Shown here: positions 294-54,766 of the stretch, piece after piece
Numbering within the stretch: the first letter of the stretch is position 1
Layout: each line of letters starts with the position of its first letter
Assembly (NCBI GenBank): GCA_015179125.1
Contig: WHVA01000177.1
Span: 62,001 to 126,000, forward strand
Source of the DNA: Gautieria morchelliformis
Taxonomy: Eukaryota > Basidiomycota > Agaricomycetes > Gomphales > Gomphaceae
Reading direction: 5' to 3'
DNA length: 64,000 bases
Program-made: the position numbers and the translations under genes
Notes under the pieces: generated by a model
Seen by the model: only the letters and a program-made list of their open reading frames with translations
Databases searched by the model: none
Told to the model about the DNA's origin: nothing

Positions 294-643
294 CCCATCC
301 TTGCCAATGTGAGGCAACGCTTTCTGCATTGCCAGCAAGACTCAATTAGGAAATCTGGTACCGTAAAATCATTTAGAAGACCTTTGTCTGTTTTCCTATG
401 GTTTTGCTTTGTGGATTATTCTACCCTCAGTCTTGAAATATAACCAAAGAGTTTTTTTTGCTCCATTATCTTCAAATACATGTTTTAGATGCAGGGGACG
501 AAAGTAATATTTTTGACCTCTCGAAATTTGCCTCAATCCGGCAACTCCCGAGAGCTAGCAAAGTCTGAAAAGTAGTTCATCTCGAGCCTCTGGAGCTCTT
601 TAGGACAGTAACAGCGCCTCGTTATCAGCTGTGAAGCTTTACT

Positions 644-3226
644 ATGGGTCGCAGGAAGGCCAGGGACTTATTAAGGCTAAAAAACCTTGGTAAAAATGCG
701 AATAAGGTGACTTTTTGACTGATTCTCCCCCTCATTCAATGTGTCTTGAGCCCAATTCTCATTGCTTATTCCTCCCAAACTCCAGAACACTGCTTTAGTT
801 GTAGAAGAAGCCTCGCTGAAGCCACAAGAGCCAGAAGTTCAGCACAGTGAAGAGTTTGATTCAAGCGGCTCGAGTTTCAGCACCCCTTCTGTGCACAGCA
901 GCCGCAGCTCATCCTTCTCTGCATCAATTGACTCTTTTCCTGATGAAATCGATGTCCATAATGATGTACAGCTGCTTACCTTCACCAACAAGCTCCAGGA
1001 TGGCATCAAAAACTTTCTTGATAATGCGAAGAAGAGAGGCCGGCTGTCTCATTATAGCAAGGCAAACCCAGCCCCTCGCACAAAGCGTAAGCGCGAAATG
1101 GATTCAGCATCCAATACTATGGTCCTCCGCAGTCACGGATACAGGACAATCACGTCATATTTCAAGAAACACCGGATGTCGCATGGGTCCGGTCAAGACA
1201 GTGAGATGGACTGCATTTCAGTGGGGGGTTTCTGTGCCAGACAGGAGGAAGAGGAGACAGAGACAGAGATGCACAAGGAGGAGGAGGAGGAGGAGGAGGC
1301 GGCAAGTCAAGATGAAGCAACAAGCAGAGTTGAAGCCAGGAATATGATGGCTACCGTGGAAACCGAGAATTTGGTTCCATGCACGTCAGAAATGGAATTG
1401 GATGATGACTGGGATGATGGTGATAACAAAGATTATGATGACAGCGAGCATACACCCATCAATGCAACTCGACAAGCTCGGGCCCAACCCCCACCCTGTG
1501 ACTCACCTGAGATCAAAGCCGGGATTACGAACCTCACTGGTCGTTCACAGGAAAAGACACTCGATGTCATCTTCTGTGGCTGCATGCTTGCAATGCTCGC
1601 ATTTTTGCGACTTTATACTGCAGGCAATGGCTGGCGGGAAGCATCGTTAATAGCATCAACAGCTTCCGGAAAAGGGAAGGGACTTGCGCGGTCTCTACGC
1701 AAATGGGTCTGGGAATATCTGGCCAACAATGACCAGTTGCCAGTCAGCTTCTATGGAATGCACATCCAGTCCAGACTCAAAGATGAGGATCTTGCCGAAG
1801 AACTGAAGCTCCACCTGCGACCTCTAGACAAAAAATATCTGCAGGCCATCGATGTTGTGCATTACCTAGAACGCCCAGACGTCAGGTCTCGGCTCAAGAT
1901 CAAAAAAAAACCAAGTGAGTGCACTGCACGTCGTTGGATGAATGCCATGGACTACCAATATGGAAAGGCACCACATGGCATGTATGTGGATGGGCATGAA
2001 TGTGCTGATGTCGTGGAATATCGTGAAGATACCTTTCTACCATTTTGGGCATCAATTGAAGACCGGATGATGACCTGGTCAAATGAAAATGATCCCATTT
2101 ACCTGCGTGCCATGCCAACCTTCCCAGAACAGAAGCGAATAGTATTGGTGACTCATGACGAGTCATCATTTTATGCAATTGATCGGCGAAAAACGCGCTG
2201 GGTACATACTACGGAGATTGCAGAACCAGTCAGACAAGGAGAAGGAGCCTCGATAATGGTCTCAGATTTCTGCTCCCCAGATCTGGGCTGGCTTAAGTCC
2301 AAGGATGGGTACATTAACTACAATTTCAAAGGAAAAGGCTCAGTTTCCACTACAGCACGAGAGAAGCTCGTATATTATTTAAAGCATGGAGAAATCGCGA
2401 TGGCTATTTTGACTGTGATGATTTGTGTTCACAGACACTACTCGCCATTGAGCTTTTCGAAGACAATTTCCCAGGAACTGCCATTGCCGCATTTGGTTTC
2501 GACAACGCACCTGGACACCAGAAGCGGGCTGATGATGCCCTTTCTGCACGTCACATGCCAAAATTTCCAAAATTTTGGCTCAGGAAAAGTGGAAAATGCA
2601 AGATGCGGCCAGGAAGACTTCCAAATGGAGAGTCGCACGACTTCTATTTCCCAGAGAACCATCCCACCATGCCTGGCTGGTTTAAGGGTATGAAATTAAT
2701 CATCGAAGAACGGGGTTTCAAGGAAGAAGGCTCACTTCCAGCCCAGTGCAAGTCATTTAAATGTGCAGATCCAACTGCTGCTTGCTGCTGCCGCCAACTT
2801 TTATTCAACCAGGAAGATTTTGCATCTCAGAAACCCAAGATTATCAAGCTTGTAGAGTCTTATGGGCACATAGTGTTCTTTTACCCAAAATTCCATTGTG
2901 AGCTCAATTTTATTGAGCAATGCTGGGGGGCTGCAAAGTATGAGTATCGGATGCTCCCACCAACCCAAAATGAGGCTGCAATGGAACAGAATGTCCGAAT
3001 GTGCCTAGATAAGGTAAACCTACTTAAGACGCGAAGGTGCTTTCCCCTCCTTATTTATCTATGGAAACGCTAGCTCACTGTGAGGATATGATACAGGTTT
3101 GCTAATCGTTCTGCGAGATTCATGGATGCTTACCGAAAAGGGTTGAATGGCATGCAGGCAAGTTGGGTGAATCAGAAGTATCATGGACATTGAGTTCTTC
3201 CTGATTCAATATTGGAGGAGCTCTAA
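644..3226 (+). pseudogene. Mar-1 transposase, DDE superfamily, decayed C-terminus
   Basis: Cut-and-paste transposase. Proposed exons are 644-706 (start MGRRKARD), 786-2308 and 2356-3013, plus a last exon up to the TAA at 3224. Introns 707-785 and 2309-2355 (GT-AG, 79 and 47 nt) join frames exactly; the second yields the junction KDGTREARILFKA. The protein has a basic N-terminal part with an acidic Glu run and then a region that could be a helix-turn-helix. The catalytic set is Asp in VTHDESS (codon 2157), Asp in FDNAPGH (2501) and Glu in ELNFIEQCWG (2915). Spacing between the second and third residues is about 137, far longer than the usual D34-39D/E. The last intron (about 3014-3073) is tentative. 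TGA at 3089 and 3191 break the C-terminal part, so it is probably inactive. Confidence 0.8.
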
Positions 3227-3363
3227 TGCTTTCTATAGTTAACTGAGTATATATTATTAGATGCTACAGTAGGTTTGGGAACCTTGAAGTTACTTGGTTA
3301 TGGGCAACGACATCCGAGCTAGATTTTTGCCACCTTAACCCTAACCCTGATATTAGTCATGCA

Positions 3364-3399
3364 CGCTTAGAGGTTGTGGAGTCTAGCTGTCCTCTACCT
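3364..3399 (-). repeat. Mar-1 right terminal inverted repeat
   Basis: Mirror of 258-293 with one mismatch, followed by the TA duplicate at 3400-3401. Confidence 0.93.
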
Positions 3400-3401
3400 T
3401 A

Positions 3402-3556
3402 CATGGAATTCAAAGTCGGCGCTAAGACGAACACGATCGAGCTATGTGACATCAAGCATGCACCAGATGCGCCGAACAACCTTATCAGTGTAGGGCGTCT
3501 AACTGATAAAGACAACATGGCCACATTTACAGGCACCGGCGTCGAATTCAAATCAC
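3402..3556 (+). pseudogene. Copia-1 Pol, fragment between protease and pre-integrase
   Basis: The frame reads MEFKVGAKT and then a stretch ending NNLISVGRL, the conserved segment after the Copia protease active site. It continues the frame broken at 257 and stops at the LTR cassette that begins at 3561. Beyond the cassette the frame resumes at 6786 (RVIFAQGQKHG). The join is open if the 4-bp GCGC/GTGC target duplication is counted once. Confidence 0.8.
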
Positions 3557-3560
3557 GCGC

Positions 3561-3763
3561 TGTAGAGAGGGAAGCCTCGCTGGAGTGACAAACTGCGCAG
3601 AACTACTAACGCAGCTGGTAGTGAGCGGGAAAGAGGAGTCTCTATTACTAATCTAAGTGGACTCATTACATACTCGAGAACAATGGGAGTGGCACAAGGT
3701 GACATCGTACTGAAAGACAAGAAAAACCTATAATCTCCAACTAGAGAGTGTAGCTCTCTTACA
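3561..3763 (-). repeat. Cassette LTR, 203 bp (3' LTR if element is minus)
   Basis: Begins TGTAGAGAGG and ends CTCTTACA. Nearly identical to 6584-6785; I count four substitutions and one extra A. Confidence 0.85.
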
Positions 3764-4654
3764 TCTGCCAGGACTCCTTTTTGAAGATCCCACTCACTAC
3801 TGGTCAACAATGAGAGACTGAGATACTTGTGATGTAAGAGCTGGGGAGTAGGGACGACACTGGGAATGAGTATGAGCCGTCAGCACTCTGAATGGGGACT
3901 ATGAGAGGGCAGAGGCGGTGTTTTGATGGTGCACTCAGTGTGGTGGTGATTGGGGTGCGCGCGTCGGCTCTCGAGGGTGTGTTGTGCAGCGCGTTCTCGG
4001 TCTGGGCGGTTACCCTGTGTGTCGAAGCAGCCGTTGGCAAGGGTGGTGCGGGAGACAGGCATGGGTATGGTGGTTCGTGTGGGCGTTGTGGGAAGACAGA
4101 GGGTGCACGATCTGCGCTGTGGTCTCGTGGGTCCACAACGCTGCGTCGTTCATTTGCGTCGTGCTCTTGCGAGGCGACACATGGGCTATGGCAGGAGTTA
4201 TGTGCAACTCCGGCATCGCCGTCCGCTTTGCTGTCTCGTGTATTGGTGTATGACTGCTGGTTGCGCGCGTTCGGCACCCATGTCCGTGCCAGGTTGGGAA
4301 GACCATTCCCGTGGGACATCTTGGGTCCACACTCTATACTCGTCGACATCGGGGCCTCTCTCTCTTCCTCTATCATACTCAAGCCCTGAGCGTGGCTGAA
4401 GTCGTGCCCGACCTTCAATTCATGTTCTGTTTTCATCCCCAATTGCTGCTCTCCTTTTCCCGCAGTCTGTGCTGTTGGGGCTCGGGTCTCCACATCTCGA
4501 GTGTCTGGTGGGTGGCTGGAAGTCCCGGCCATTGCACTGTGCTGGTGCGGGTGGTGTGTGACAGTATGGGAGACGAGTGCGCAGGGCTGTGCGACGTTTC
4601 AAAATGCGTAGAGGGCCGCGTGGATGTGTGTGAGCATGGTGGAAGGCAGGAATG

Positions 4655-5107
4655 TTGGGTGCATTTATGCTCCTGCACCAAAATCAAGCATAATATATTC
4701 GATTTATTGTATGGTGTTTCAACCCTTTCTCACATTGTTCTTGTACCATGCATCTATTTCTCTGATTATTTTTCGAAATTTTCCAGTCACTCCTTATCTC
4801 TCCATTCCACTTTGTTATTTCTATTTTCACAGGCGGCTGCACACAGCGGAGTTTGAAACGACTTCGACGCGCGAGCCCTTGGGCGCTAAAGGGCCGGGTG
4901 CACGTATATGCCTTCTGAGACAGGATAGTACTCCTCTCTCAGTGACAATAAATTCACTGAGAGAGGCGAGTAGTATTCTTTATATTTACATAGCATGTTG
5001 ACTGAAAATCATGTAGTGTATTTGATTCTAGGTACTGTATTAATATATCAGTGACAATAAATTCACTGAGAGAGTGTATTTGATTCTAGCTTTCTAATAA
5101 CTCTACA
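4655..5107 (+). repeat. Repeat A, member of the A/B/C structured repeat family
   Basis: The 453-bp unit starts TTGGGTGCATTTATGC and ends CTCTACA. Shared marks with B and C are GTGC...GCAC near the 5' end, GGGCGCTAAAGGGCCGGGTG, TATATGC, a 12-bp-stem hairpin (4934-4965, loop CAATAAAT) and a second hairpin at 5048-5074. The tail 5048-5089 equals 4939-4965 joined to 5017-5031, leaving out 4966-5016 (GCGAGT...TGTAG). No clear target duplication remains at this copy. It interrupts the zinc-finger frame. Confidence 0.75.
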
Positions 5108-6411
5108 GAACCTTCCCTGCCATAGCCCCTAGTTGCTAACAAGGAACGCATGTCTCAGGGATGTAGAATGCGGGAGAGAGTGTCACGAAGCAGCTTCAAT
5201 AAAGATGGCCATGTGCGGATGCTCGAGGTGGTTCCTACTGTGTGCGTGTCCACTCTGCCGTACGCATCGTGCGACGCTGTCTGTGCCTGCGTGGGAGTAC
5301 CGCGGGTCCGCCTCTCGGCGTCCTTCAGATGCGTCGCATTCTCTCGAGTCATTGCGGGTGTGTGCGTGCTCACATGGGTCTCGGTCAGGGTTGCGATCTC
5401 ATGACTCCTCGCCATCTGCTGCATCTCTGTCCTGCAGTGTCGCTGCGTGACATCATGCGTCGGTACGCAGGTTGTGGCTGTGAGGGGAGTTTGCATAGGA
5501 GCATTCTGTTTGGACGGTGCGGGTGAGGAAGAGAGTGGAGGTGAGGAAGGAACCCAATGGCTAGGCAGCCTGTGACATCGTGAAGAATGCATCGGCGTGT
5601 ACTGAGCACGCGAGGAAGGGAGTGGAGGCGTAGGATAAAGGGGAAAACGCGCCAGGGCATGGAGGTGCGTGTCGGTTTGTGGCTGCCTTGCCACATCACA
5701 TGTCTGGACGACGGTCTCAAGGGTTGCGCTGTTGCCATGGGCGGCGCCAATGCCCGCGGTCCTTCTGGTCATAGCCGTGCATGGCACTGTAGGTGGGAAC
5801 GTGTGGGACACATCCGCGCATGGTGCAACGTGTGCATGGGAGGGAGCCAAGCTGGCGATGCACGAGGATGTTGGGGTGACACCATAAGACAGCGCAGAAC
5901 GTAGCTGTGGGTCCTGGCTGACGGCACGGTGCACCCTGATGTGTCGTTTAAGTCGGTGGGTGGTTGAAAATGCACGAGAGCATGTAGCACAAGTGTGTTG
6001 GCGCATTGCGCCACTCCCATTGTTCTCCGGGGCTCCTATGACTGTATGACAGGGCACATACAGAATATCTCGATGAGATGGGACTGATAAGGACAGAACT
6101 GAATTGGATGGTGGTTGAGAAACAACTAGCAGGGAAGTAGAAGGTGTCGGTGGCCAGCAGACTATAGACTCGGGACTCTTGTCCTCCAGGAACGAGCGAA
6201 GAAGTCCATCAGAAATGGCTGGAGAGATAGCAAGTAGCTCCTCCAAGGAAAGTGTAATGGGGGTTTGGAGAGGATCATCTGTGGGTGCAATGGATGTCGA
6301 CAGGATATGTTCTAAGACGCTTGTGACTGTGCCGTGCATTGCCACCGGGTTGCCCTGCGTTTCGACTGACTCGCTGTGGTTCATTTCAATTCGACCAACT
6401 AAGTATAACTT

Positions 6412-6785: not shown

Positions 6786-9741
6786 GTGCCAGAGTTATTT
6801 TCGCACAGGGACAGAAGCACGGGCGGCTATTCTGTATGAAGGCACGGGTCACTCGATCAGTCGAGGCATGGGATTTTGCCGCAGCGGCAAAGGGACGGTC
6901 ATGGGACAAATGGCACAGGATACTCGGGCACATCAACATAAACTCTATAAAAATGTTGAAATCTAACGACCTACTTACTGGACTCGAGATCGACGAGTCA
7001 AAAGAGCCGAGTCAGTGCAAGGCTTGCATACAAGGCAAACGGCATGTGGAGCCATTCACCAAAAGAGCTGAGGATACTGTTGATCTGGTCGGTGACCTAA
7101 CAGTATCCAATGTATGGGGGCCTGCCCAGTTTGAGGGACCGTCACGTGAAAAATACTTTTATTCTTTCACGGACATCAAATCTAGGCACACGGTCATTTA
7201 TTTCGGGAGTGCCAAAGATGAAGCGCTCAGGCACTTTGAAACATACAAAGTGTTTCTTGAGACCCAAACAGGTCAGAAACTGAAGAGGTTTCGCTTGGAC
7301 AACGGTGGGGAATATGTAAATAAAAATTTCAAAGAATTTTGTGAAAAACATGGCATTATCATGGAGACCACAGCTCCATACTCCCCAGCCCAGAATGGAA
7401 TTGCAGAACAACTCAACCGGACCTTACTCGAGCACGCACAGGCAATGATATTCACCAAGAACCTGCCAAAAATACTTTGGCCTGAGGCCATGGCTTACGC
7501 ATGTTATATCAAAATCGATCGCCCACGCGAGCGCTTGGAGATGATGCAACACCGTTCCAGGCACTATTCGGCAAGAAGCCGAACATAGCTCGTCTAGAGG
7601 AATTCGGGACAAACTGCTGGGTTATGGTGCCGGATCAACGTCAAGCTAAACTTGATCCAAAGGCAGAAGAACACATATTCGTTGGAGTAGCTGAACATGC
7701 AAAAGCCTGGAGGTATTATAATAAAGCCTCAAAGCACGTTCAAATCTCAAGAAATATTACATTCGACGAAAACGACAATAAACTGTACCCTATCCCGGAT
7801 AACAACGATGATGACACCACTGATACGGCACCGCTCGAGGGGGAGCACTCACAGCGCGAGCATGTGCCGGACCCAATCCCATCTACCCCACAGACGTCAT
7901 CACCCCAGACGACGCCCGTTCCTGATCCACCTGAACAAGCGCCAGCCCCACAGATTCAACGGAGCACGTGTATCACTCAAAGGCCGGATTACTGGAAGCT
8001 GAATGATTCAGGCCGCACCAAGCAGGTTTACATAACAAAAGAAATCGTTACTGAACCTGAGAATTACAGAGCGGTGGTATCACGTGATGATGCGCCGATC
8101 TGGGAGAAAGCGATGGAAATTGAAATGGATCAACATAAGACGCTAGGAACATGGGAATTAACAGAACTACCACCCGGATGAGTAGCTATCGGTTGCCGAT
8201 GGGTATACGCTGTCAAAACGCAACCGGATGGACAATTCGATAAAGCTAAAGTGAGTGTCGTGGCTCAAGGATTCACACAGAGGCCAGGGATGGATTACTA
8301 CGAAATAACTTCACCTGTGGTCAAGTTCGATTCACTACGTGTTTTATTAGCCATCGTAAACACGCTTGATTGGGAAATCGAGATGATGGATGTCAACGGC
8401 GCCTATCTCAATTCAAATATAGATGAGGAGATATACATGCGTCAGCCCGACGGTTTTGATGATGGATCTGGACGCGTTCTAAGAATACACAGAGCGCTCT
8501 ATGGACTCAAGCAATTGGGGCGAGCTTGGCATCAGCGCTTACGCAAATTACTACTTGATCTCGGCTTCCACCAAAGTACAGCCGATGAATGCATCTATAT
8601 CAGACAAGATAAGGACTCAATCGAAGTCATATCAGTATACGCGGACGACTTCGGACTATTTGCTGATTCCAAAGGAGGGATGGTTAAGCTCAAGGGGGAG
8701 CTTCCTGGAAAATTCCCTTTGACAGATTTAGGAGAAATGAAGAAAATCTTGGGAATTAGGGTTGAAAGGAATAGGGATGAGGGAACACTGACTATGTCCC
8801 AAGGACATTACATCAACATCATACTCGATCGATTCAACATGGCGACGGCTCATTCCGTATCTACACCTCTACACAAAATGATCAAGCTCACAACGCCTAT
8901 GGACTCAACGGGTCCTCCTACCTCCCTTATACATTCTTCCTTCTCATTTCTTTCCACCCCTTTCGAGGAGGGTGCTTCATGCTATCAGTGTTCCCCAACT
9001 ACTGAAGTACCCTATGCTAAAGCAATTGGATTGTTAATGTATGCAGCACTCAGCACGTGACCTGATTTGGCTTTTATGGTACAACACTTAAGCCAATTCA
9101 CTACTACTTACGGAGCCGAGCACTGGACGGTGATCAAGCATGCGCTCAGGTACCTCAAGGGGTCACATGACGACGGCATAACCTTCCGACGAGACACTGG
9201 TCTCGACCTTGAAATATTCGTTGATTCGGACTATGCTAATAGAAATGATGCACTGTCTATTAGTGGCTATGTAGCTATACTAGGAGGGGGAGCCATCGCA
9301 TGGAGCTCGAAGAAGCAACGAACGATCGCGTTATCTACTATGGAGGCCGAATACATGGCACTCACCGAGGGCACCAAGCAATTGATCTGGCTAAGGTGCT
9401 TCATCGAGGAACTAGGAATAGATCAAACCCAGCCCACGTCACTTCGATCAGACAATCTAGGCACCATCACACTATCACATGACACAACATACCATGCGCC
9501 TACCAAACATATCAACGTCGCATATCACTTCATCCGTGAGAAAGTGGCCTCTCACGAGGCAACACTTACGTATGTACCGATGAAGGAGAACGTAGCGGAC
9601 ATATTTATGCAGGGACTGGATTTACACCAACCTAGGTATTTATTAGGGAAATTAGGATTTTGCAGAAGGGACTTCTTGCTGAGGGGGAGTGTTAGTAATC
9701 AGGACGATGATACGGCCGAGGCAGAGCTGGCATGCATTTAG
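6786..9741 (+). pseudogene. Copia-1 Pol: integrase, reverse transcriptase, RNase H
   Basis: Pre-integrase zinc region: WDKWHRILGHI with CKACIQGK. The integrase core shows LDNGGEY and NGIAEQLNRT. A frameshift occurs near 7510. The RT begins at the TGA at 8179 (probable former Arg) and carries IEMMDVNGAYLN, YGLKQLGRAWH and a YADD catalytic box near 8640. A stretch at about 8915-9000 looks inserted before VPYAKAIG. A TGA at 9058 interrupts STRPDLAF. RNase H follows with DSDYAN, STMEAEYMAL and the conserved KHINV region. The last codons run into the LTR. Product would be the Copia polyprotein; not functional here. Confidence 0.88.
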
Positions 9742-12008: not shown

Positions 12009-13493
12009 TCAGACCATCCGCCTCGTTAATGCCTTTCCAACCCGCGCTGGCCTGCTCGAGGCCTGCACAGTGCTGCTCAAAGTTGCCGCGTCGAAGGTGC
12101 ACAGCGGGTAAGCGGGCAGTGGGGAAAGCGTGTCGGCCGTGAGGTGTAGAAACTCGGTTTGGGCAAGTAGGAAGTTATATGCCAGATATGAACGATGGGA
12201 CTTGCAGGAGATTAGTAAACTATTTAATGTTCTCTCAGTGATAGTCAACACTGAGTAATATAAAGGAATGCTACCTATTTAATGTTATACATGTTTTTTC
12301 AGTTTCATACTATGAAAGTACACTATTAAACTCACCTCCTCAGTGATAGTCAACACTGAGGAGGGGAGGCTGCGCATGGGCTTGTTTCACTCGCATATAC
12401 GAAGTTCCGGCACTTAAGCGCCCTTGAGGCACTGGTGTGCCGTGCTAAGCGCCCATAGAACGTAACACGTTAGTGAACAGCCGCAGCTCAAAAAGGAAAC
12501 TTGTCCACAAGCACCCACAAAGGGTTGGTTGGACAGAACATGAAAAGGAGTAGTAATACAGCCTCGAAAAAATCAAAGAAAATTGTGAAAGGCATAGAAT
12601 GAATGTCAGCATAGTTTCAGGTCGAAATTGAAAGAAATAACAACAGAAATGTTAGGTTTGGAGCCTGGTGCACATATGCACCCAACATGAGGGACATATC
12701 TTCCGGATCTGCGTGCTGGCCCGGAGGTGCGTAGTACGCCGACTGCCACGTTGAAGAATCCGTGCAGTCGTGCGGCGACTCTGCTGCGCGGTGCCGTCCA
12801 TGCCGTCAGGGATCCCCGCCGGGGGAAAATTCCCACCTTCATCGTTGTCGATAACGTTGGCCACGCGCATCAGATGGATCGTGAGGCCCCCCACCCACAA
12901 TCCACTCCAGGCCCTTACATTGTGCTGCACTGCACCGTGCACGAGCGGACTCCAGTGGATGTCTGTGAGCACAGGGGAGTCAAGCACGCTGGGAGGAGCA
13001 GGAGGATGCGGAGGGTACTGAAGATTCTGGCAGAATAATGTTAGTGGTTCATTTGTTATCGGTCTGAAGAGGAAGGAAGGCAACGGGATAACACTGATGA
13101 AAAATATGATGCAGAAGCAGGGTATAGCCGTGTCCGGTTCTAGGCCCTTCCCAGCTAAAATCTTCAGACAAGACCCACCTCCAGCCCATCCCACATCGTG
13201 CCGTCCCCGATCCAACGACAATGTTCGTGATCTCCCATCCACTGGGCATCTTCTCGCATATCATCACATACAACGAACGGGGTCACAAAGACGCGCACTG
13301 CCGTGCACAAACCCGACCTAGAACCAAAGCCGATGCTCCAAAGCAGACTGAACAAAGACAAACACCAAGCAGCATCAACACAACGCCGCAGGCCACCCAT
13401 AAACGTGTCCCTCGTGGCGTACCCCCACGAACACCACGCACGTGCACAAGCCACAGTTAGCGCCCTGGTGGCAGTGCAAGCAGATCTGCGCAC
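12009..13493 (-). pseudogene. Unrecognised minus-strand gene, split by repeat C
   Basis: Excising repeat C with one 7-bp target duplicate joins DPEDMS to LTADTLSPLPA in one frame, which ends at a stop at 12009. Upstream the minus strand shows several protein-like stretches (for example one ending GNFPPAGIPDGMDG), intron-like pyrimidine tracts before AG, and a hydrophobic segment near 13340. Frames change more than once, so exon structure could not be settled. Function unknown; possibly a broken host gene. Confidence 0.35.
12145..12685 (-). repeat. Repeat C, member of the A/B/C structured repeat family
   Basis: The 541-bp unit (minus: TTGGGTGCATATGTGCACC ... TTTCTACA) is flanked by CGTGAGG (12138-12144) and CATGAGG (12686-12692), a 7-bp target duplication with one CpG change. 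Hairpin 1 is at 12336-12363 and hairpin 2 at 12232-12255. The tail lacks segment 12287-12335 (GTGAGT...TGTAT), which is present between hairpin 1 and the 12-nt piece 12275-12286. Confidence 0.75.
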
Positions 13494-26672: not shown

Positions 26673-27144
26673 TGTCAGGGGACACCCTGTTTTCCATTTC
26701 CAGTCCTGACACCACACCCAGTTCCGACTCCATTTCCGATTCCATCTCCGACTCTGCTTTCGGAAATGATTCCGCTTCTGGCAGAACTTCCACCAGTTCT
26801 GTTCGCTTTGACAATTCCACTCCAATTTCCGACTTCTGCTCTCGGAACAGTGTTGGAAGTCAAGCGACTCACATAATAGGTGACATCAAGGGTCTATCAA
26901 GGGTCAGGGAGGTCAGGAGGGTGCAGGGTTGATGGCGGGTGCCAAGTGTTGTCCCTGGCTGCGCAGCATAGTATAGTACGGGCTCGCTGACATTGGGGGT
27001 CCTTAGACTTTTCTCTTCAGATTTCCCCTTGTCAGGTGAGAATCCCCTCTCTTGTATACTCTGTTCATTTATACATACTTCGGATTTCCCCTTGTCAGTT
27101 GTGTGGTAGTGTGATCTCCGCAGCCAGCTAGGGTTGCCCTTACA
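26673..27144 (+). repeat. Gypsy-1 5' LTR
   Basis: Starts TGTCAGGGGACACC, ends GCCCTTACA, 472 bp. Contains a run of TTCCGA/TCCGAC hexamers and two copies of GGATTTCCCCTTGTCAG. Confidence 0.92.
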
Positions 27145-27211
27145 GCAGAAAAGTCTCACCTAGAGGACCGGCGGTCGTACTGCACGTTGCATTCGCCATA
27201 GGTGCGTTTGG

Positions 27212-28507: not shown

Positions 28508-30615
28508 GATGTGTGCCCCTGCTGCCTGTACATAACCGGCGTTCCTCTCTTGAAGTAGAGAATGAAAAGCCCCCACTCCCCTCACTTCGTACAGACCCAC
28601 CAGATAAAGTCACACAAAAACCGAATCCGACACCCTGTCCATCCTGCATCTGCCCTTGGGAGAGACACCTCCCAAAGCGCTATGTTGTTGCTGCCACCCC
28701 TGGCCCCAAGTCACTAGTCATTAAGGTGGAGATCCAGACGACAGATATGGCGGAAGTCAAATCTGGACCCACCCTTGTCGATTGCGGGGCCACTGGTCAG
28801 TTTATGGACCGGGATCATGTGGAACGGAACCGACTGACCATGCGGAAGTTGCAACGTGCAATCCCAGTGTTCAATGTGGATGGAAGCCCCAACGAGGAAG
28901 GGTCCATCATGGAGATAGTAGACACAATTCTCCGCTATGATGGACACACAGAACGCACCTCCTTTGCAGTCACCAGCCTGGGAAAGCAAGACATCATCCT
29001 CGGGTTTACCTGGCTCCAGGAGCAGAACACGGAGATCAATTGGCAGACTCGGAAGGTGCTGATGAGTCGGTGCCCAGCCAAGTGTCACATGTGCTGATCG
29101 GAAGTGCGGAAGGAGCACCAGGAGCAGCGGAAGACCGAATGGCTCATACAGACATGTCATTCAGGCCCCCATCCACTGCTTGCAGAAGACGACTCGGAAG
29201 CAGAATTTGAACCGGCTCCCACATTCAATTCCGATTGCGATTCCGACTCCGACGTCATCCGACTCAGCCCGGAAGACACTCTGGTGGCGGGGGAGCGCTT
29301 GCTGTATGTAAACCTTCCACCGGAAGCGGAACACATCCATGCCACCGGAAATATTTCGCAACGCCTCGCTGAAGCCTCCAGGAAGCATGATAAAGTGGAG
29401 GTGGAGATTCCGGAGTACCTGCGGGAGTTCGAGGATGTCTTTGCCAAGGAGTCATTTGATGCCCTGCCTCCACGGAAGCTGTGGGACCATGCTATAGAGT
29501 TGGAGCCTGGGTCAAAGCCCACCAACTGCAAGGTCTGCCCGCTGTCACCCAAGGAGCAGGTAGAGCTTGATGCGTTCCTTGTGGAAAACCTCTGTACTGG
29601 GAGGATCTGCCCCTCCAAGTCACCCATGCCATCTCCGGTGTTCTTCATCAAGAAGAAGGATGGTTCACTCAGACTTGTGCAGGACTACCGGGCCTTGAAT
29701 GCGATCACGATCAAGAACTGGTACCCCATTCCACTCATTTCCGAACTGATCACACAACTCCGTGGGGCAAGGTACTTCACTAAGCTGGATGTCCGCTGGG
29801 GCTTCAATAATGTTCAGACCCGTGAGGGAGACGAGTGGAAGGCCGCATTCCGCACCAACTGAGGACTCTTTGAGCCACAGGTCATGTTCTTTGGCCTCAC
29901 CAACAGTCCTGCCACATTCCAGACAATGATGAATGACATCTTCCGTGACATGATAGCAGAAGGGGTTGTCTGTGTCTACCTTGATGACATCCTCATCTTC
30001 ACGAAAACAATGTCGGAACATCGGGAGGTCGTGTGGAGAGTGCTGGAATGGCTCCGGGAGTACAACCTGTGTCTCAGGCCAGAAAAGTGCGAATTTGAGC
30101 GGACATGGATAGAGTACCTTGGGGTGATCGTGTCGGAAGGAAAGGTGGAAATGGACCCAGTCAAAGTTTCTGGTGTGTTTGAATGGCCTGTGCTGCGGAA
30201 CAAGAAGGAGGTCCAGTCCTTTGTTGGGTTTGTCAATTTCTACCGGCGGTTCATCAAGGACGTCTCCTGCCATGCCCATGCCCTCTTCAACCTCACCAAG
30301 AAGGATGTTGGATGGTGGTGGGGGGAGCCAGAACAGGCCTCCTTTGACAAACTCAAGGAGCTGATCACTTCTGCTCTGGTCCTGATCTTTCCCGACGACT
30401 CTTGTCCTTATCGAGTTGAGGCGGATTCTTCTGACACAGCCACCAGAGCGGTTTTGTCGCAGCAGTCATCGGAAGATGGTGGCGGGTGGTATCCGATTGC
30501 CTTCTTCTCTAAAAGCCTTAGTCCAGTGGAACGGAATTATGAGATCCACGACAAGGAAATGCTGGTGATCATCCGAGTGCTGGAGGAGTGGTGACACTTC
30601 CTTGAGGGTGCTCTG

Positions 30616-31333
30616 TGTTATGATATTCCAGAAACGATATTAATGACATCACCGAGACCAGTATCTAAGATATGCGGACATGACCGAATCACGATCCCCA
30701 GAACCTATGCTTTCGTCTATACTCAGCCACACACAGATATCCCCGAATCCCCTGACTCGCATACACACGACGCCGGACCAATACATTATCACGCACGCGC
30801 ACAGGGCACGCCAAGCCGGTCACTATCACATTACATATGTCGATTCCATCAATCTCGATCGAGAGACCGACCCGAGGCACAGATCCCCGCTTAGGCACCA
30901 ATTCAGTTGCGACCAAGACACGATATACATCCGATCGTCCCTGAGCGGCTCCGACCGAGGCCCCACGATTTCTCCTATATATCACGCACATGTCCCTTCA
31001 GACCACCGCCTTGCATACAATAAACTCTTAGCATTACCTTGTAATATTCACTCGAGAGTTCACTCCAGTCCACACTCCACATCCCCCTGTGTTTCTACAT
31101 CACATACCGTACGTATTGCATCGACGCCGAGTCCTTTCCAGTAGTTAAATAGTATAAACAAATGTAACTGTCGAAGATGAATAACAATAGTTTTACCTCT
31201 CCACCGTCTCAAGATTCCTGATCGAAATAGTCTCCGTAGTACAAGCAGTCCTCTCAGAATTCAGACCCCTACTCGATTCAGCTTCACTCGAGGCTTGAAT
31301 AAAATCCAAATACATTTATAGCAACTCTTATCA
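30616..31333 (+). repeat. Copia-2 5' LTR, 718 bp
   Basis: TGTTATGATATTCC ... AACTCTTATCA. The following GATTAAGAGTCTCACG is the likely primer-binding region before the ATG at 31359. Confidence 0.96.
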
Positions 31334-31358
31334 GATTAAGAGTCTCACGACACTCACC

Positions 31359-34300
31359 ATGGCTCAAACCACAGCACACCCAAAACACGATATACATAAA
31401 TTCCACGACATCAAACCCAAACTGGACAAAGAGAACTGGATGTCATGGAAGAGGGAACTGTTGGCAACGATGAGGGACAGAGGGATTTTCAAAACAATCA
31501 CCGGTGTGGATCCCTACCCCGTCACAGCTAACCAGCAGATCACCGTCGTCGCCGGAATTAACATGGTTGGCAGTACGGCTCTAACTCAGCTTCAGGACGA
31601 GTGGGACGACAGAAATAACGCAGCTTACAGTCAGATCCTCTTATGCATTTCCCCCGAACTACAGACCGCAATCGACATGACAGACCAATGCACGGAAGCA
31701 TGGACTATACTGACTAGGAAGTTCGAGTCCACCGACCCTAGCAAAATCAGTATAATCAGGACAAAATATGAAAACTACCACATGATCGAGGGGCAATCGG
31801 TCTCGGCGTACCTCACCATGATGAAAGAATACAGGAATCAGCTTGCCAAAATGGGTGAAGTGATCGCTGATTCCACTCACGCGGCCACCATACTCAGAAA
31901 TGTCCCCGAGTCATGGAGACCTATCGCGCAGACCATAAGAATGATCACGAGGGTGCCAGACGAGATCGAGGAGAGGCTGGAGGCACATGAGGCGGATCTC
32001 AACGCGGTGGAGATGTCGACACAAGCGGCTATGGCGTTCATAGCACAGGGCAGGACACAAAAAAGATTCAATAACCCAATGCCGAGAATGAACAACAACC
32101 TCACCTATCCCTACCAAAACCGCATTCCACAACAAATCAACAACGGACCGCCTGCATTCTCCTGCAACAATTGTGGTAAGCCGAACCACTCTGCAGCGAG
32201 GTGTTATGCACCTGGCGGGGGACTGGCGGGTCAGGAGCCGTGGAAACGATTGTACGGGGCACAGGGAGTAGGAAGCGTGCAGGGAGGGGGAGGAATGCAG
32301 GGAGGAGGTAGCGCTCAGGGTGGAAATAGCGCTCACGGAGGAGGTCTCACCGGAAGTGATCGAAATGACATCATCAGGGCAGCCCCACCCCCACAGCATC
32401 ATCAGTCAGCAAATCCCGACATAGCTCGATTCGCCAATATACCAAAGAAAAACATCGTCATGTTGGCACAAATCATTGAGAACCAATTCGATTCGAATAA
32501 CATCACATTGACAGCTAATTTGACAGCCCTATCAGCAATACAAGATAGCGTCCACATCTGGTTAATCGATTCCGGGGCGTCTAGTCACCTATGCGGAACA
32601 CTCGAATTATTCGAAGAGATACACCCCACACCTCCTATCTCGATAGAAACATCCAGCGGGGACTCATTTAACGCGGATCAACGTGGTACGATCCACATCA
32701 TGATACAGAATGACTCACACGCGCAGCTATCCCCGCTCGCATTGACTCTAAAGGACGTCATATACGTTCCAAAACTCAACGCAAATCTATTATCGGTCGC
32801 AAGAATGACGAACGCCAATGTGGATGTTATATTCAGTAAATCCAACACATCATTACTGCTAGGCGACGAAACGATCGCAAAAGGTACAAGAATAAACGAC
32901 CTATACGCCTACATAGCACAGCCGTCTACGAAACCGGAGCCTGAAGCTGCCGTTTACTCAAAGGAACCCAACTCGATGTATCTGTGGCATCGAAGATTAG
33001 CACACGCTGGAATCTCGATACTCGAGAAGATGTCAAAGAGACAGACTGGGATCGGGTTACCTGAACTGAGTGCAGGACAGGAGCTGAGTCCCTGTACAGA
33101 CTGCCCTTTCGGAAAACAGACCCGCTTACCATTCAAAAACATCGAAGACCTTCCAGAATCGATTGGTGATATCATATCCTCAGATCTTTGCGGCCCATTC
33201 GAAACCTCAGTCGGCGGTTTCAAATATTTTGTCATCTGGATCGATCACCCCACCAGATACATCAAAGTAGATTTCCTGAAGAACAAAGAATGCAAGACGG
33301 TTACCAATTCGTTCAAGGAATATTTGGCGTGGTTGAAGAAGCAGAGGGGAGTTGATGTGAAGAGGATCAGAACCGATAACGGGGGGGAATACATGGGAGG
33401 AGAGTTCAAGGAACTGTGCAGTGAGCTTGGAATCGTTCATGAAACAACAACTCCTCACACACCTGAACACAATGGAGTCGCAGAGAGATACAACAGAACG
33501 CTCCAGGAAGGCGCACTCACGTTACAACACGACGCCGGCCTCACGAGCCGATTCTGGGTATCCGGTATCCATACAGTGAACTTCGTGAAAAATCGAACGT
33601 TACACAGCAAAATCGATATGTCACCCTACGAGGCCTTATGGAAGACGAAGCCCAGACTTGACTGGTTGCGCACATATGGTTCCAAATGCTGGGCACTGAT
33701 ACCAAAGGACACAAGGAGGAAAGGCGACTACAAATCAACAGAAGGGATTTTCGTTGGATATTTTGATGATTCAAAAGCATACAAGGTGTGGATACCACGC
33801 ACCCAAACACTGATGAAGGCTCGGGATGTAGTTTTCGATGAACTGAAACAAATCGAACGTACCACGCTACACATCACCGACGAAGATGAAACCCCACAGC
33901 TCTGGGTAGTCGACGGAAATCTCCCCACATTCTCCCATCCATCACAATCTGAAACCAACCCACCAATCGACGACAACGACGATGAGATGCCACCCCTGAC
34001 ATACGACGACACGATGGACACTGATGATGAAGGAGAGGGAGAAGCGATAGAGGCGAGGCTGAATGTAGGAGAGGGGGAGTTATGCACGGAGAGTTTCGAC
34101 ACAGAAGCCGAACCGGAGGAACAAGTGGAAGAGTCAGAGGCGAACACAGGAAGAGGAGAGGGAGAGGACATAGCACCGAAGGAATTCCTGAAGGGACCCT
34201 GGATGAATCCGTCAAACACGAATTATGGAAGAGGCAGGAGACATGCCGCACTACTCACCGAAGTAGTAGCAATGGCATACGGGAGGAGAGAACTTGAGGA

Positions 34301-35897
34301 GACCGAGGCAGGATTCGTGGTACTAGCGGAGGACGAGCCAGCGAGCTATAAAGAGGCAATGAAGTCAGAGAATGCAGAGAGGTGGAGGAAAGCATGTCAA
34401 GATGAGTACGACTTACTGATGGGATACAACACGTGGAAGCTAGTCGAGAAACCAGCCGAGGCGAACGTCGTAGGAAGCCGATGGACATTTCGAGTAAAGA
34501 GGGACAACAAGGGGGAGGTCGATAAGTTCAAATCCAGATTCGTTGCTCAAGGCTACTCACAAGTACCAGGAATCAACTTCCAAGAAACCTATTCTCCTAC
34601 AATCAGACTCACCTCTATCAGACTCATCCTAGCACTCGCATGCAAATTCGACCTGGAACTGCGACACATAGACATGAAGGGAGCATACCTCAACGGAAAG
34701 CTCGAGGACACAGTATACATGCAACAACTGGAAGGTTTCGCCAAGCCGGGAGAGGAAAATCTAGTGTGTAAACTCAACAAAGGAATATACGGCCTCAAGC
34801 AGTCAGGAAGGGTATGGCACGGGACTCTGAGAAAAGAGATGGAGAGGATAGGATTTAAAGCAGGGGAGGCGGACAACACAGTATTTTTCAGGTTCGGAGA
34901 GGGAAACACAGTCGAGATTGCTGGATGGTACGTGGATGATGGACTCCTAGCATCGAATTCATTAACCGCTATGGAGGGGATGGTCACCGCAATCAGGGGG
35001 AGCTTCGATATCCAAGATTTGGGGGACCCGACGCGGCTGCTCGGGATACAGATCGTCAGGGAACGTGAACGCGGCACAATCCATATCTCACAGCCGGCAT
35101 TCATTAACACAATGTCAAAACGATTCGAAATAACATAAGGACGCGCCGTCAACTCACCAATGGATCCTAACGTCGAACTACAAATCTCCACCATCCCAAA
35201 CGACATCATCGATTACACGTACGCATCCATCGTAGCCAGCCTCAACTACTGCGCCGTTGCCACTCGACCCGACATCGCATACGCCGTCAATAAGTGTGCA
35301 CAATACTCATCAAAACCTAATGTCACACACTGGGAAGCCGCCAAGAGGATATTACGATACCTGCTGAACACGAGAGAGTATGGGATACTGTACGTCAGAG
35401 AAGGGGAAGGAGCTGTTGGATACGCTCACAATCTAGCCGGATACACTGATGCGGATTTCGCGGGCGATCAAAACGACCGAAAGTCAACCATGGGATGGGT
35501 ATTCACCTTCAATGGCGCACCCATATCCTGGGCCTCGAAGAACCAGGGTCTCGTTAGTCGATCGACCATGGAGTCCGAGGTGGTAGCAGGATCGTTCGCA
35601 TCAGCGGAAGGGATATGGCTCATCAAACTGGGGGAAGATTTCCAACACGATTTCACACCTATTCCAATATTCACGGATAATCAATCGGCCATCGCTTTCT
35701 TAACAAACAACACCAATAGCAGCCAAACGAAACACATTGACGTGCACTATCATTACATGAAGGAACAAATCGACGTGGGAAATATCAAACTACACTATGT
35801 AAAAACACTCGATAACCCCGCCGACGTCCTCACGAAACCACTGTCACCTCGCAAACATCTCAACATCCTAGCGATGCTAGGAGTGCGTCGAGTTTGA
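31359..35897 (+). pseudogene. Copia-2 Gag-Pol polyprotein, one internal stop
   Basis: Starts MAQTTAHPKHD 25 bases after the LTR. Gag (UBN2/Copia type) runs to the CCHC knuckle CNNCGKPNHSAARC (residue about 269), then Gly/Gln-rich repeats. Protease WLIDSGASSHLCG at about 400. Pre-integrase YLWHRRLAHAG at about 541. Integrase has IRTDNGGEYMG and HNGVAERYNRTLQ. An acidic linker precedes RT with DMKGAYLNGKLED and the catalytic YVDD at about 1191. TAA at 35136-35138 (codon 1260) interrupts the frame, which continues as RNase H (YTDADFAGD, STMESEVVAG) to 35897. The TAA may be CAA to TAA. The product would drive copying and integration if the stop were absent or read through. Confidence 0.93.
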
Positions 35898-35904
35898 GGG
35901 GGAG

Positions 35905-36622
35905 TGTTATGATATTCCAGAAACGATATTAATGACATCACCGAGACCAGTATCTAAGATATGCGGACATGACCGAATCACGATCCCCAGAACCTATGCT
36001 TTCGTCTATACTCAGCCACACACAGATATCCCCGAATCCCCTGACTCGCATACACACGACGCCGGACCAATACATTATCACGCACGTGCACAGGGCATGC
36101 CAAGCCGGTCACTATCACATTACATATGTCGATTCCATCAATCTCGATCGAGAGACCGACCCGAGGCACAGATCACTGCTTAGGCACCAATTCAGTTGCG
36201 ACCAAGACACGATATACATCCGATCGTCCCTGAGCGGCTCCGACCGAGGCCCCACGATTTCTCCTATATATCACGCACATGTCCCTTCAGACCACCGCCT
36301 TGCGTACAATAAACTCTTAGCATTACCTTGTAATATTCACTCGAGAGTTCACTCCAGTCCACACTCCACATCCCCCTGTGTTTCTACATCACATACCGTA
36401 CGTATCGCATCGACGCCGAGTCCTTTCCAGTAGTTAAATAGTATAAACAAATGTAACTGTTGAAGATGAATAACAATAGTTTTACCTCTCCACCGTCTCA
36501 AGATTCCTGATCGAAATAGTCTCCGTAGTACAAGCAGTCCTCTCAGAATTCAGACCTCTACTCGATTCAGCTTCACTCGAGGCTTGAATAAAATCCAAAT
36601 ACATTTATAGCAACTCTTATCA
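35905..36622 (+). repeat. Copia-2 3' LTR, 718 bp
   Basis: Same length as 30616-31333 with eight differences. Followed by the CTCTG duplicate. Confidence 0.96.
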
Positions 36623-37893: not shown

Positions 37894-38375
37894 TGTAGAG
37901 GACAGGAATTATAGGCAGTAGGACTGGACTTGGTGCTCAAAAGAATAGACTAGAAATCAATTCACTCTCTCAGTGAATTTAGTGGTCACTGAATATATTA
38001 TACACTACCTAGAAATCAATTCACTACAAGATTTCTGGGTCAACAAATCGAAGGAAAATAAGACTAATTTACTTGCCTCTCTCAGTGAATTTAGTAGTCA
38101 CTGAGAGAGGGGGAAATGTGTCTTACTGTGCATATACTACCACCCGGCCCTTTAGCGCCCATGGCAGCGCGCGTCGAAATGATTACATAAGGGTGCCGGT
38201 GGTGAAAAGAAGGAAAACAAATCGAAATAGAGGTACAAATATTTGATAGAAAATTTCGGAAATTTTTGAAAAATAAAGTGATCATAGTAGAACAATCTGA
38301 AAACAAATTGGAAAGAAATACGAATGGTGGAATGTATTTGGCTTGATTTTGGTGCAGGAGCATAAATGCACCCAA
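37894..38375 (-). repeat. Repeat B, best-bounded copy of the A/B/C structured repeat family
   Basis: Inserted in Gypsy-1 Pol between KAKDDIARY and YNRRRVPA. AGGTAC occurs on both sides (37888-37893, 38377-38382) where Gypsy-2 has it once, so a 6-7 bp target duplication is certain. The minus strand starts TTGGGTGCATTTATGC and ends CCTCTACA, 482 bp. Hairpin 1 is 38077-38109, hairpin 2 is 37965-37992. The segment 38024-38076 (GCAAGT...TGTAG) lies between hairpin 1 and the 15-nt piece 38009-38023, and is missing in the tail copy 37950-37992. Confidence 0.85.
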
Positions 38376-38919
38376 GAGGTACTACAACCGACGCCGGGTT
38401 CCTGCCCTGGAGTACCAAGTTGGAGACAAGGTGTATCTAGATGCAAGTGACATCTGCACCACACGCCCTTCGCAGAAGCTTGCCCACCGCTACCTTGGGC
38501 CCGTCACAGTGATGCGGAGGGTTGGACGGAACGCATACCGCCTCCGACTTCCAAACTCCATGTCCCACCTACACCCCATCTTCAACGTAGTGATGTTGCT
38601 CCCTGCTCTTGAGGACCCAATGCCAGGTCGGAAGGCTCATCCGCCACCTCCACTGGAAATTGTAGATGGGGAAGAGCACTATGTGGTGGAACAGATCCTG
38701 GACAGCCGGTTTGTGCAAGGACGACTCCAATTCCTCATGAAATGGGAATGGTATGGGTATGAGGAGAATTCGTGGGTCCCGGAGCAAGATGTCTCTGCTC
38801 CGGACAAACTCCGTGAGTTCTATAGGACACACCCTGGTGCCCCTCGCCGAATCCGCTCGCTGGCCTTTCAATCCCTCGTGTCCTGTCCTTCGAGGACGCA
38901 GCAAGCTAGAAGGGGGTGA

Positions 38920-39381
38920 TGTCAGGGGACACCCTGTTTTCCATTTCCAGTTCCGACACCACACCCAGTTCTGACACCATTTCCGATTCCATCTCCGACT
39001 CCGCTTTCGGAAATGATTCCGCTTCTGGCAGAACTTCCACCAGTTCTGTTCGCTTTGCCAATTCCACTCCAATTTCTGACTTCCGCTCTCGAAACAGTGT
39101 CGGAAGTGAAGCGACTCACGTAATAGGTGGCATCAAGGTCGATCAAGGGTCAGGGGGATGCAGGGTTGATGGCGGGTGCCCAGTGTTGTCCCTGGCTGTC
39201 CAGCATAGTATAATATGGGCTCGCTGACATTGGGGGTCCTTAGACTTTTCTCTTCGGATTTCCCCTTGTCAGGTGAGAATCCCCTCTCTTGTATACTCTG
39301 TCCATTTATACATACTTCGGATTTCCCCTTGTCAGTTGTGTGGTAGTGTGATCTGCACAGCCAGCTAGGGTTGCCCTTACA
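38920..39381 (+). repeat. Gypsy-1 3' LTR
   Basis: TGTCAGGGGACACC ... GCCCTTACA, 462 bp, preceded by the purine tract AGAAGGGGGTGA, which also supplies the Pol stop. Confidence 0.92.
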
Positions 39382-39435
39382 GTGGGATTACGAGGCCCTC
39401 CCAATCCCTTGTTACCTGTCCAGAATGGCTGGACT

Positions 39436-52900: not shown

Positions 52901-53922
52901 TGGTTTTTAGGCATTAATATCGTGTATTAGTGAACACAGTGAATGCCCAAATAACTTGTGTGAATAGGTATGCTGTTCGGCGAAGAGGATGAACCAATAA
53001 ATGTTCAGAAGATAACAGGGCTGCCTGAACGGAGCTCGCCCTATCTACAGTCATAGCGAAATAGCCCGTGATAATTGACGATGTAACGTGCAAGGTGTCT
53101 TGGAAAGGTTGTCTAAATAGCAACAATCCTTTCGCCGGCGAAGGCACTCCTTTGGAGCCCTTCGCCGACAGCATAGAAAATAGTTTGAAGACTAAAGTAA
53201 TGAAGGTGAAGTATGAAAACTCACCAGTGGTGCTTAAGTCCTCCTCTGGTTGAAGATAGAAATCTACAGGTGAGGGCTCAAGACGATGATCACAGTGAGG
53301 TCAAGCTTTGCACAAGATGGACGTATGATAATTGAACTGAAGAATATACATGCGAATGTAGACTACTTATATCGAATGCTCATATGATGCTAGCGAATAG
53401 GAAAGAGGCCGTCTGGAGTCAGGGTTGGATAGGGGTGCGCGGTCAGGATACATAATAGATGAAATAGACATACAATAGAATGGAAGAGGGGTGTGAACAT
53501 GAAATGATGGAGAGGAAAGAGGGCGAAGGCCCCTACATACGAGAACACGCCTTGGGACCTGCATATACACCACCCTGCATGGACTCTTCGTCTGCTGGGT
53601 TGATCCCACATGACCTATGGGTAGGACGACCTGCGAATGTATCCTGGCCATATGAACACCTAAAGGGGATGGATCGAGAAGGTGATGGGGCCAGTGATGA
53701 ACTATCACGCCGGGTAAAGGGTGTCAATCATGTTTGATGGCGTGCCTGCTGGTGAATGATGCGAGCAGCGAATGGTCATTCGGCGAATGTGGCGAAGAGC
53801 GAGTGGAACGAACATAGTGGGGGAGTGGTCAGAGGGTATGGCGAACTCAGGTGAAGATGCAAGAGGAATGATGAGAGGGGGAACAGAGACAGTGGGGTAA
53901 GGGAAATATACGGGTCATGACA
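52901..53922 (-). repeat. Solo LTR in Gypsy-4 chromodomain
   Basis: The reverse complement runs TGTCATGACCCG ... CCTAAAAACCA, 1022 bp with TG...CA ends. Its first 629 plus-strand bases recur at 54146-54766. No target duplication: ATCGA on the left, GAGTT on the right, and about 15 chromodomain residues are lost, suggesting deletion or recombination. Confidence 0.65.
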
Positions 53923-54145: not shown

Positions 54146-54766
54146 TGGTTTTTAGGCGTTAATATCGTGTATTAGTGAACACAGCGAATGCCCAAATAAC
54201 TTGTGCGAATACATATGCCGTTCGGCGAATAGGTGAACCAATGAATGTTCACAAGGTAAGAGGGTTGCCCGAACGGGGCTCACCCTATCTACAGTCGCAG
54301 CAAAATGGCCTGTGGCACTTGACGATGCAACGTGAAAGGTGTCACGGAAGGGCTGTCTAAGTAGCGACAATCCCTTCGCCGGCGAAGGTGCTCCTTCAGA
54401 GCCCTTCGCCAACAGCACAGAAAATGGTTCGAAGGCTAAGGTAATGAAGATGAAGTATGAGAACTCACCAGTGGCGCCTAAGTCCTCTGCTAGTCAAATA
54501 TGGAAATCTCCAAGAGAAGGCTTAAGACAATGACCACAGCGAGGTCAAATTTGCACAAGGTGAACGACGTATGATAATTGAACTGGGGAATATACATGCG
54601 AATGTAAACTACTTATATTGAATGCTCGTAAGGTATCAGCGAAAAGGAAAGAGGCCGTCATGAGTCAGGGTTGGATAGGGGTGCGCAGTCATGATACAAC
54701 ATAGATGAAATAAACATACAATAGAATGAGAGAAGAAGGAGAACATGAAACGACGGAGGGTGAAGG
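54146..54766 (-). repeat. Second copy of the same LTR, truncated by Gypsy-2
   Basis: Matches 52901-53529 closely (GTTTTTAGGCGTTAATATCG start; CTTTCGCC(G)GCGAAGG near 54377). It breaks off at 54766, where the Gypsy-2 LTR starts. The missing right part is not found on the far side of Gypsy-2. Confidence 0.75.

Follow-up and report, generated by a model that had tools for sequence, protein, structure and literature searches.

The window, a stretch of 64,000 nucleotides from contig WHVA01000177.1 of the basidiomycete Gautieria morchelliformis, contains three repeat copies (A, B and C), each of which ends in a tail that resembles the upstream hairpin region of the same copy with an internal piece left out. 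The first-pass annotation read this arrangement as unspliced and spliced versions of one RNA segment placed in tandem and renewed in each copy. Which kind of element carries such a tail, and by which process could the tail be kept in agreement with the hairpin region?

Solo LTRs of Ty1/copia retrotransposons

All three copies represent solo long terminal repeats (LTRs) of copia-type retrotransposons and not small structured elements. In family alignments built from the searched assembly (122 Mb, 1113 contigs) the element boundaries coincide with LTR boundaries (Table 1), which rules out a small structured non-LTR element. The assembly also contains 26 matches to the hydrophobin family, 16 of which extend over at least 69 of the 79 model positions; they mark it as fungal and probably as that of a mushroom-type basidiomycete. 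A search of the whole window against Rfam at gathering score yielded no match. All three copies are flanked by target duplications of 5 bp; the duplications of 6-7 bp and the element ends given by the first-pass annotation were thus incorrect, the actual ends being those of the LTRs. The LTRs of copies A and C start with TG and that of copy B with TC, and all three end with CA. A complete family A element (L017, positions 483-5729), the one element on which the assignment to copia is based, encodes a copia Gag domain, an integrase with a DDE-type core (rve) and an RVT_2 domain, with the integrase located before the reverse transcriptase (RT). The family A LTR is followed by GGGTTATGGGCCC, a candidate tRNA-type primer binding site (PBS) that may correspond to the anticodon arm of the initiator tRNA.

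Several further observations concern the history of these LTRs and their surroundings. LTR B interrupts a sequence that has an intact relative, representing the empty site, at 55755-55866 in the gypsy element of the window. At two places in the assembly (L060 and L066) a family A LTR is nested in the initial part of a family C LTR. Two other copies (L138 and L144) combine a C-family-like U3 with B-type R and U5, which suggests that modules are exchanged between LTR families. The window also harbors a copia element at 30615-36622, with LTRs 98.9% identical over 719 bp, a Gag-INT-RT reading frame of 1259 amino acids and an LTR without the repeat layout described below. In addition, it contains a copia remnant at 6836-9738 with pieces of integrase, SH3 and RT across several frames, and two copies of about 615 bp (52901-53512 and 54146-54758) that lie close together and are 84.6% identical.

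Table 1 Coordinates of LTRs and of their parts in the window. Introns, exons and the 3' R acceptor are proposed features.
Feature	Position	Strand	Remarks
Solo LTR, Ty1/copia family A	4653-5141	+	489 bp; target duplication AGGAA; boundaries common to 25 aligned copies, window copy counted
A1, family A (first copy of R part 1, proposed exon 1)	4939-4965	+	exact repeat; recurs at 5048-5074
Proposed intron 1, family A	4966-5016	+	51 nt; GCGAGT...TTGAC...TGTAG; sole AG/GYRAG of the LTR (family copy L009)
B1, family A (proposed exon 2)	5017-5031	+	exact repeat; recurs at 5075-5089; followed by GTACTG
Proposed intron 2, family A	5032-5089	+	58 nt = linker + A2 + B2; GTACTG...TTCTAG; precisely missing from 13 G-form LTRs read
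A2·B2, family A (proposed 3' R acceptor)	5048-5089	+	exact copy of A1 + B1; within-copy linkage measured in B-type copies
U5, family A	5090-5141	+	LTR end from family alignment
Solo LTR, family C	12145-12687	-	543 bp; target duplication CCTCA; boundaries from 30 copies, window copy counted
A1, family C	12336-12358	-	
Proposed intron 1, family C	12287-12335	-	GTGAGT...
B1, family C	12275-12286	-	
A2·B2, family C	12220-12255	-	
Solo LTR, family B	37894-38377	-	~484 bp; target duplication GTACC; boundaries from 27 copies, window copy counted
A1, family B	38077-38103	-	
Proposed intron 1, family B	38024-38076	-	GCAAGT...TTGTAG
B1, family B	38009-38023	-	
A2, family B	37965-37991	-	
B2, family B	37950-37964	-	
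Gypsy solo LTR	26673-27145	+	R1 (...TTGTCAG) ends at 27035; proposed GTGAG intron 27036-27098, its 3' end = R2
Gypsy LTR, same family as 26673-27145	38920-39382	+	R1 39252-39272; proposed intron 39273-39335, ending in R2
Gypsy chromovirus, 3' LTR	54767-55234	-	R1 54876-54896; proposed intron 54813-54875
Same gypsy chromovirus, 5' LTR	60510-61007	-	R1 60619-60639; proposed intron 60556-60618

Repeat layout, within-copy linkage and splice-like signals

The long form of the LTRs reads U3-A1-[49-55 nt]-B1-linker-A2·B2-U5, and the duplicated piece occupies the position expected for the R region. In the parsed copies of families A, B and C (one each), A2·B2 consists of A1 followed immediately by B1. 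This exact join is kept across the three families despite their differing sequences, the B segment being TGTATTTGATTCTAG in A, TGAATTGATTTCTAG in B and AACATTAAATAG in C. The first-pass description of the tail as the hairpin region minus a gap was confirmed for copy A, where the omitted piece is the proposed intron 1 of Table 1, and for copy B, including the one mismatch noted there. For copy C the tail layout was as claimed, but the reported gap end TGTAT and the tail short by one base turned out to be private to the window copy. Among the 30 aligned C-family copies, the gap ends with TGTAG in 28 (the exceptions are the window copy with T and L086 with A), and the additional tail G that makes the join exact in length is present in 29, the window copy being the sole exception. 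The A/B repeats are not chance similarities. When both strands of the window were scanned for exact direct repeats of at least 13 nt at a spacing of 35-260 nt (low-complexity filter applied), a single 15-mer repeat at 42107 was detected besides the copia A/B/C and gypsy LTRs.

The sequences of the two repeat positions are tightly linked within copies. We joined matches by position among those listed (100 each of the 1312 A2·B2, 1270 B1 and 1318 A1 exact genome matches). B1 was equal to B2 in 81 of 83 paired B-type copies, which carried the alleles AAT, GTT and GAT, compared to 28 expected if the positions were unlinked. Likewise, A1 was equal to A2 in all paired B-type copies (80/80; two alleles). 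No B1 partner among the B1 matches listed was found for 17 of the 100 A2·B2 matches listed. The paired copies are related and not independent, and the number of independent events is thus smaller than the number of copies. Each allele change shows at both repeat positions, i.e., the repeats evolve in concert, in agreement with the first-pass observation that hairpin and tail agree within copies and differ between them; the families differ as well. A few copies count against a renewal of the repeats. B1 and B2 are unequal in the remaining two of the 83 pairs (L136 and L137), two family C copies (L085 and L088) share a B2 change that is absent from B1, and two copies lacking intron 1 (L115 and L118) share a difference between A1 and A2. 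A lag of one generation, or transfer between two RNAs, could account for such copies with unequal repeats.

An analogous layout was found in the Ty3/gypsy LTRs of the window, two of which belong to a chromovirus (54767-61007, minus strand) that contains a chromodomain. In a sample of 18 gypsy copies (4 from the window and 14 fetched), the same T-to-C change occurs in both R1 and R2 of three copies, and T is present at both positions in the other 15. The copies w26673 and L106 have one further private change each.

The ends of the repeats coincide with splice-like signals. The motif AG/GYRAG, where the slash marks the end of the first repeat, occurs once per LTR and precisely at this place in all four LTRs tested (copia A, B and C and gypsy, represented by a single copy each), and it is absent from the copia LTR at 30615-31333, which lacks the repeats. 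Both the piece before B1 and B itself end with AG, and GTA directly follows B1. The joint chance of these junction motifs is approximately 2e-9, a rough product of motif frequencies that allows three positions at each of the three junctions and counts the related families A, B and C once. The proposed intron 1 is 49-55 nt long with GC-AG or GT-AG ends. A branch-like TTGAC is the majority form in A and B, with CTGAC in L116 and TTAAC in L121. Shared variants were found at 0 of 42 signal sites (donor, branch and acceptor) versus 13 of 111 other intron 1 sites (one-sided p = 0.013; three family alignments, with variants counted if present in at least two copies and the C branch picked by eye). 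Intron 1 thus has the GY..AG ends, the branch motif and the host-like length of a spliceosomal intron. The signals are weak at the second donor (GTACTG, GTAGTG or GTAGCA) and at the branch site in C and gypsy. A host actin gene (L135, 1338-1386) contains a 49-nt intron with a GC donor (GCAAGT...CAG), and four further introns extracted from actin are of the GT-AG type with lengths of 52, 58, 59 and 67 nt. Across the four LTRs, ATG is absent from the 368 nt of proposed spliced leader and occurs 22 times in 1227 nt of U3. In the copia intron 1 and gypsy intron sequences there are five in 216 nt (none in family B), and copia intron 2 has none.

A proposed renewable intron and its by-products

Based on these features, we propose that the LTRs carry a renewable intron: the leader would be spliced, and strand transfer to A2·B2 would rebuild the intron in each cycle. 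We estimate the probability of this reading at roughly 0.6. Transcription would start at the first base or bases of A1, and the 5' leader, with the order A1-intron 1-B1-intron 2 (linker-A2-B2)-U5, would be spliced twice to yield cap-A·B·U5-PBS-gag. The first-strand cDNA of this leader, ending in the complement of A·B, would then anneal to A2·B2 close to the RNA 3' end. There the LTR copy would stay unspliced, possibly protected by pairing of the U3 arm with the end of exon 1. After annealing, synthesis would run on through linker, B1, intron 1, A1 and U3. Because the cDNA would enter at A2·B2 of the unspliced 3' copy, the new LTR would regain both introns, with its A2·B2 recopied from the spliced A1·B1. 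The spliced-leader cDNA would match A2·B2 over the whole R part and A1 over A only. In the gypsy LTRs the putative single intron ends in the exon 1 copy, so that strand transfer would restore it likewise. The first-pass idea of unspliced and spliced versions in tandem, renewed per copy, is partly supported: it fits the linked alleles, the intron-like signals and the precise variant forms described below, from which we infer the splicing itself, but it did not recognize the copia LTRs or the location of the duplicated piece at the place of R, which supplies a mechanism.

The position of TATA-like boxes is consistent with the predicted start site. These boxes lie upstream of the limit of A1/A2 identity by 35 nt in A (L009), 34 nt in B, 32 nt in B', where the box (TACATGC) is weak, 41 nt in C and 43 nt in gypsy. 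The region common to A1 and A2 starts only at the A of AGTGAC in some of the B-type copies. For family A, the sequence predicts a transcription start at 4940-4941 (C or A of CAGTG). Compared to shuffled sequences, U3 together with exon 1 and the donor folds stably in the window copies (z = -5.8 for A, -3.5 for B and -5.1 for C) as well as in B' and gypsy copies (z = -3.4 and -3.2, respectively), whereas leader-only stretches are not more stable than shuffles (z = -1.0 for A and -0.8 for gypsy). For gypsy, the fold predicts pairing of the U3 arm with the end of exon 1 and GUGAG. In partition function calculations, a clear gain in accessibility of the donor region in the context of the 5' leader was restricted to A and B'. 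The outcome was mixed for gypsy and for B, where the copy used (L031) carries a private change next to the donor, and no rise was calculated for C or L121. A clean hairpin switch at the donor was therefore discarded, being clear in A and B' only. As modeled, the folds are suggestive of a hairpin that protects the 3' copy from splicing.

Aberrant products are also predicted by the mechanism. Annealing at A1 instead of A2·B2 would yield U3-A·B-U5 (short form). A leader lacking only intron 2 would find its best match in A1-gap-B1 and give U3-A-gap-B-U5 (G form); if landing on A2, it would produce a tail still holding the gap. From a leader lacking only intron 1 a double tail would result, and from an unspliced leader landing on A2 a doubled unit. 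An A·B-linker-A·B form would require that the 3' copy is spliced too. The short form, the G form, the double tail and the doubled unit were all found, as predicted. For the short form we obtained 86 exact genome matches, and 11 of 11 fetched places were confirmed, comprising A- and B-type LTRs. Two short forms at C133 lie on the same strand at a distance of 4.6 kb, as would the paired LTRs of one element, and four further candidate pairs occur among the matches listed (C255, C407, C625 and C981). As LTRs without the intron occur in pairs, the intron is not strictly needed. The G form had 180 matches with at most one mismatch; 13 of the 14 fetched copies could be read and all 13 were confirmed, with one left unresolved. 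At the same threshold, A·B-linker had six matches, two of which are A·B-linker-A·B-U5 and four A-gap-B-linker-A·B-linker-A·B-U5 (double tail). The doubled unspliced unit A-gap-B-linker-A-gap-B-linker-A·B is present in full at C118, and repeated units occur at C650. None of the 13 G-form copies that could be read had the predicted gapped tail A-gap-B-linker-A-gap-B-U5. In a tree built from 78 U3 sequences (with L118, of the A·B-linker form, entered as G and three copies left unclassified), there are nine changes of state for the short form and 11 for the G form, which shows that these precise changes recur. The first-pass annotation had held that copies without the tail or the exact gap would speak against its reading; such copies do exist as minority forms, most of them being by-products that the mechanism predicts.

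Two simpler splicing schemes were rejected. A single 109-nt intron ending at A2 would explain why A1 equals A2 but not why B1 equals B2, and GAGAG seems to be a poor acceptor. If only intron 1 were spliced, the tail should grow in every cycle, yet double tails are rare (four of the six A·B-linker matches).

Explanations that do not involve splicing also have to be considered. The by-products can be obtained from template switching between A and A or B and B as well, which counts against the splicing model. In the corresponding scenario, the R segment is duplicated and RT switches between A1 and A2 or B1 and B2, which homogenizes the repeats and yields deleted or expanded forms. Indeed, every variant found can be written as an A-A or B-B exchange or a combination thereof, and exchange-like events recur on the U3 tree. 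However, template switching provides no reason for repeat ends at GY...AG in two superfamilies, and it leaves the ATG-free exons and the conserved intron signals unexplained. Simple unequal exchange would result in a single-repeat form and not in the homogenized long form, since the contexts of B1 and B2 differ. Moreover, the B-B products (the G form) outnumber the A-A products (the short form) although A is longer, a comparison that carries little weight because the search patterns differ and subfamilies may have multiplied. Overall, we regard template switching without splicing, the main alternative, as possible but rather unlikely.

Alternatively, both copies might be binding or signal elements, such as a polyadenylation or packaging hairpin (AATAAA is present in the family A loop), whose identity is maintained by selection through a single binding factor. 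The stable hairpin of A1 and U3 in all three window copies, B' and gypsy would fit this function, but A2 lacks the outer stem arm and the parsed B and C repeats lack AATAAA. Selection for binding alone also does not predict linked loop alleles, and we consider this explanation improbable. The order A1-...-B1-A2-B2 further resembles the split direct repeats of tyrosine-recombinase elements of the DIRS/PAT/Ngaro type. For family A, the DDE-type integrase (rve) and the copia RT rule out such an element, and the copies have 5-bp target duplications; we assign a negligible likelihood to this origin. Within the renewable-intron reading, a more far-reaching version can be formulated, which we put forward tentatively and at somewhat less than even odds. 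The R used for first-strand transfer would be made by splicing, a pre-spliced copy of it would reside in the last intron of the LTR, and the hairpin of U3 and donor would keep the 3' copy unspliced. The copia and gypsy elements of one fungus would have reached this solution separately, perhaps because the expression of basidiomycete genes often depends on an intron.

Comparison with known retroelements

A splice donor inside R, as proposed here, is found in the retroviruses HTLV/BLV and in spumaviruses. To our knowledge, these viruses have neither an acceptor within the LTR nor a spliced copy of R.

Among LTR retrotransposons, a close case is BARE1 of barley. RNA of this copia element is spliced just beyond gag, the spliced RNA serves for translation, and replication has to avoid packaging and reverse transcription of the spliced RNA (PMC3735527). 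BARE1 and the elements studied here are both of the copia type and would share splicing, but the BARE1 intron is located beyond gag, whereas the putative introns described here lie in the LTR and the spliced leader apparently serves as template. Plant LTR elements are generally without introns; the exceptions Ogre and Arabidopsis EVADE use them for subgenomic RNAs and alternative splicing (PMC12786077), and shGAG of EVD has also been reported (PMC8892269). Ogre and EVADE thus resemble the elements proposed here in having functional introns, and an R intron restored by strand transfer is not mentioned for them in the excerpts of that article (PMC12786077). Ordinary LTR replication involves a first-strand cDNA that is extended up to the RNA 5' end and is afterwards transferred to the R region close to the 3' end, either of that RNA or of a second one (PMC10085805). 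In the excerpts and titles covered, drawn mostly from freely accessible papers, no description was found of an intron restored within an LTR; phrase matches in PMC5542766 and PMC4256276 concerned the name of a vector and ltrB, a bacterial gene.

Why an LTR would keep an intron may be related to the host. In Cryptococcus, intron removal strongly lowers mRNA accumulation for most genes tested (PMC3744415), and similar dependence on introns has been reported for Armillaria and Ganoderma (PMC4935854, PMC7017817). This dependence would be a possible reason to keep the LTR intron. If the proposed mechanism is true, R is a spliced product and the elements could meet the need of their host for introns. 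Repeat ends on GY/AG inside an LTR would be the signature to look for in other genomes. In mini-Tnt1 reporters, loss of the intron is the mark of retrotransposition, and the progeny lack it (PMC2923131); here, in contrast, the intron is apparently restored. An element copied via RNA is expected to lose the introns of its template, and their restoration in each cycle, if true, would represent a new solution to this problem.
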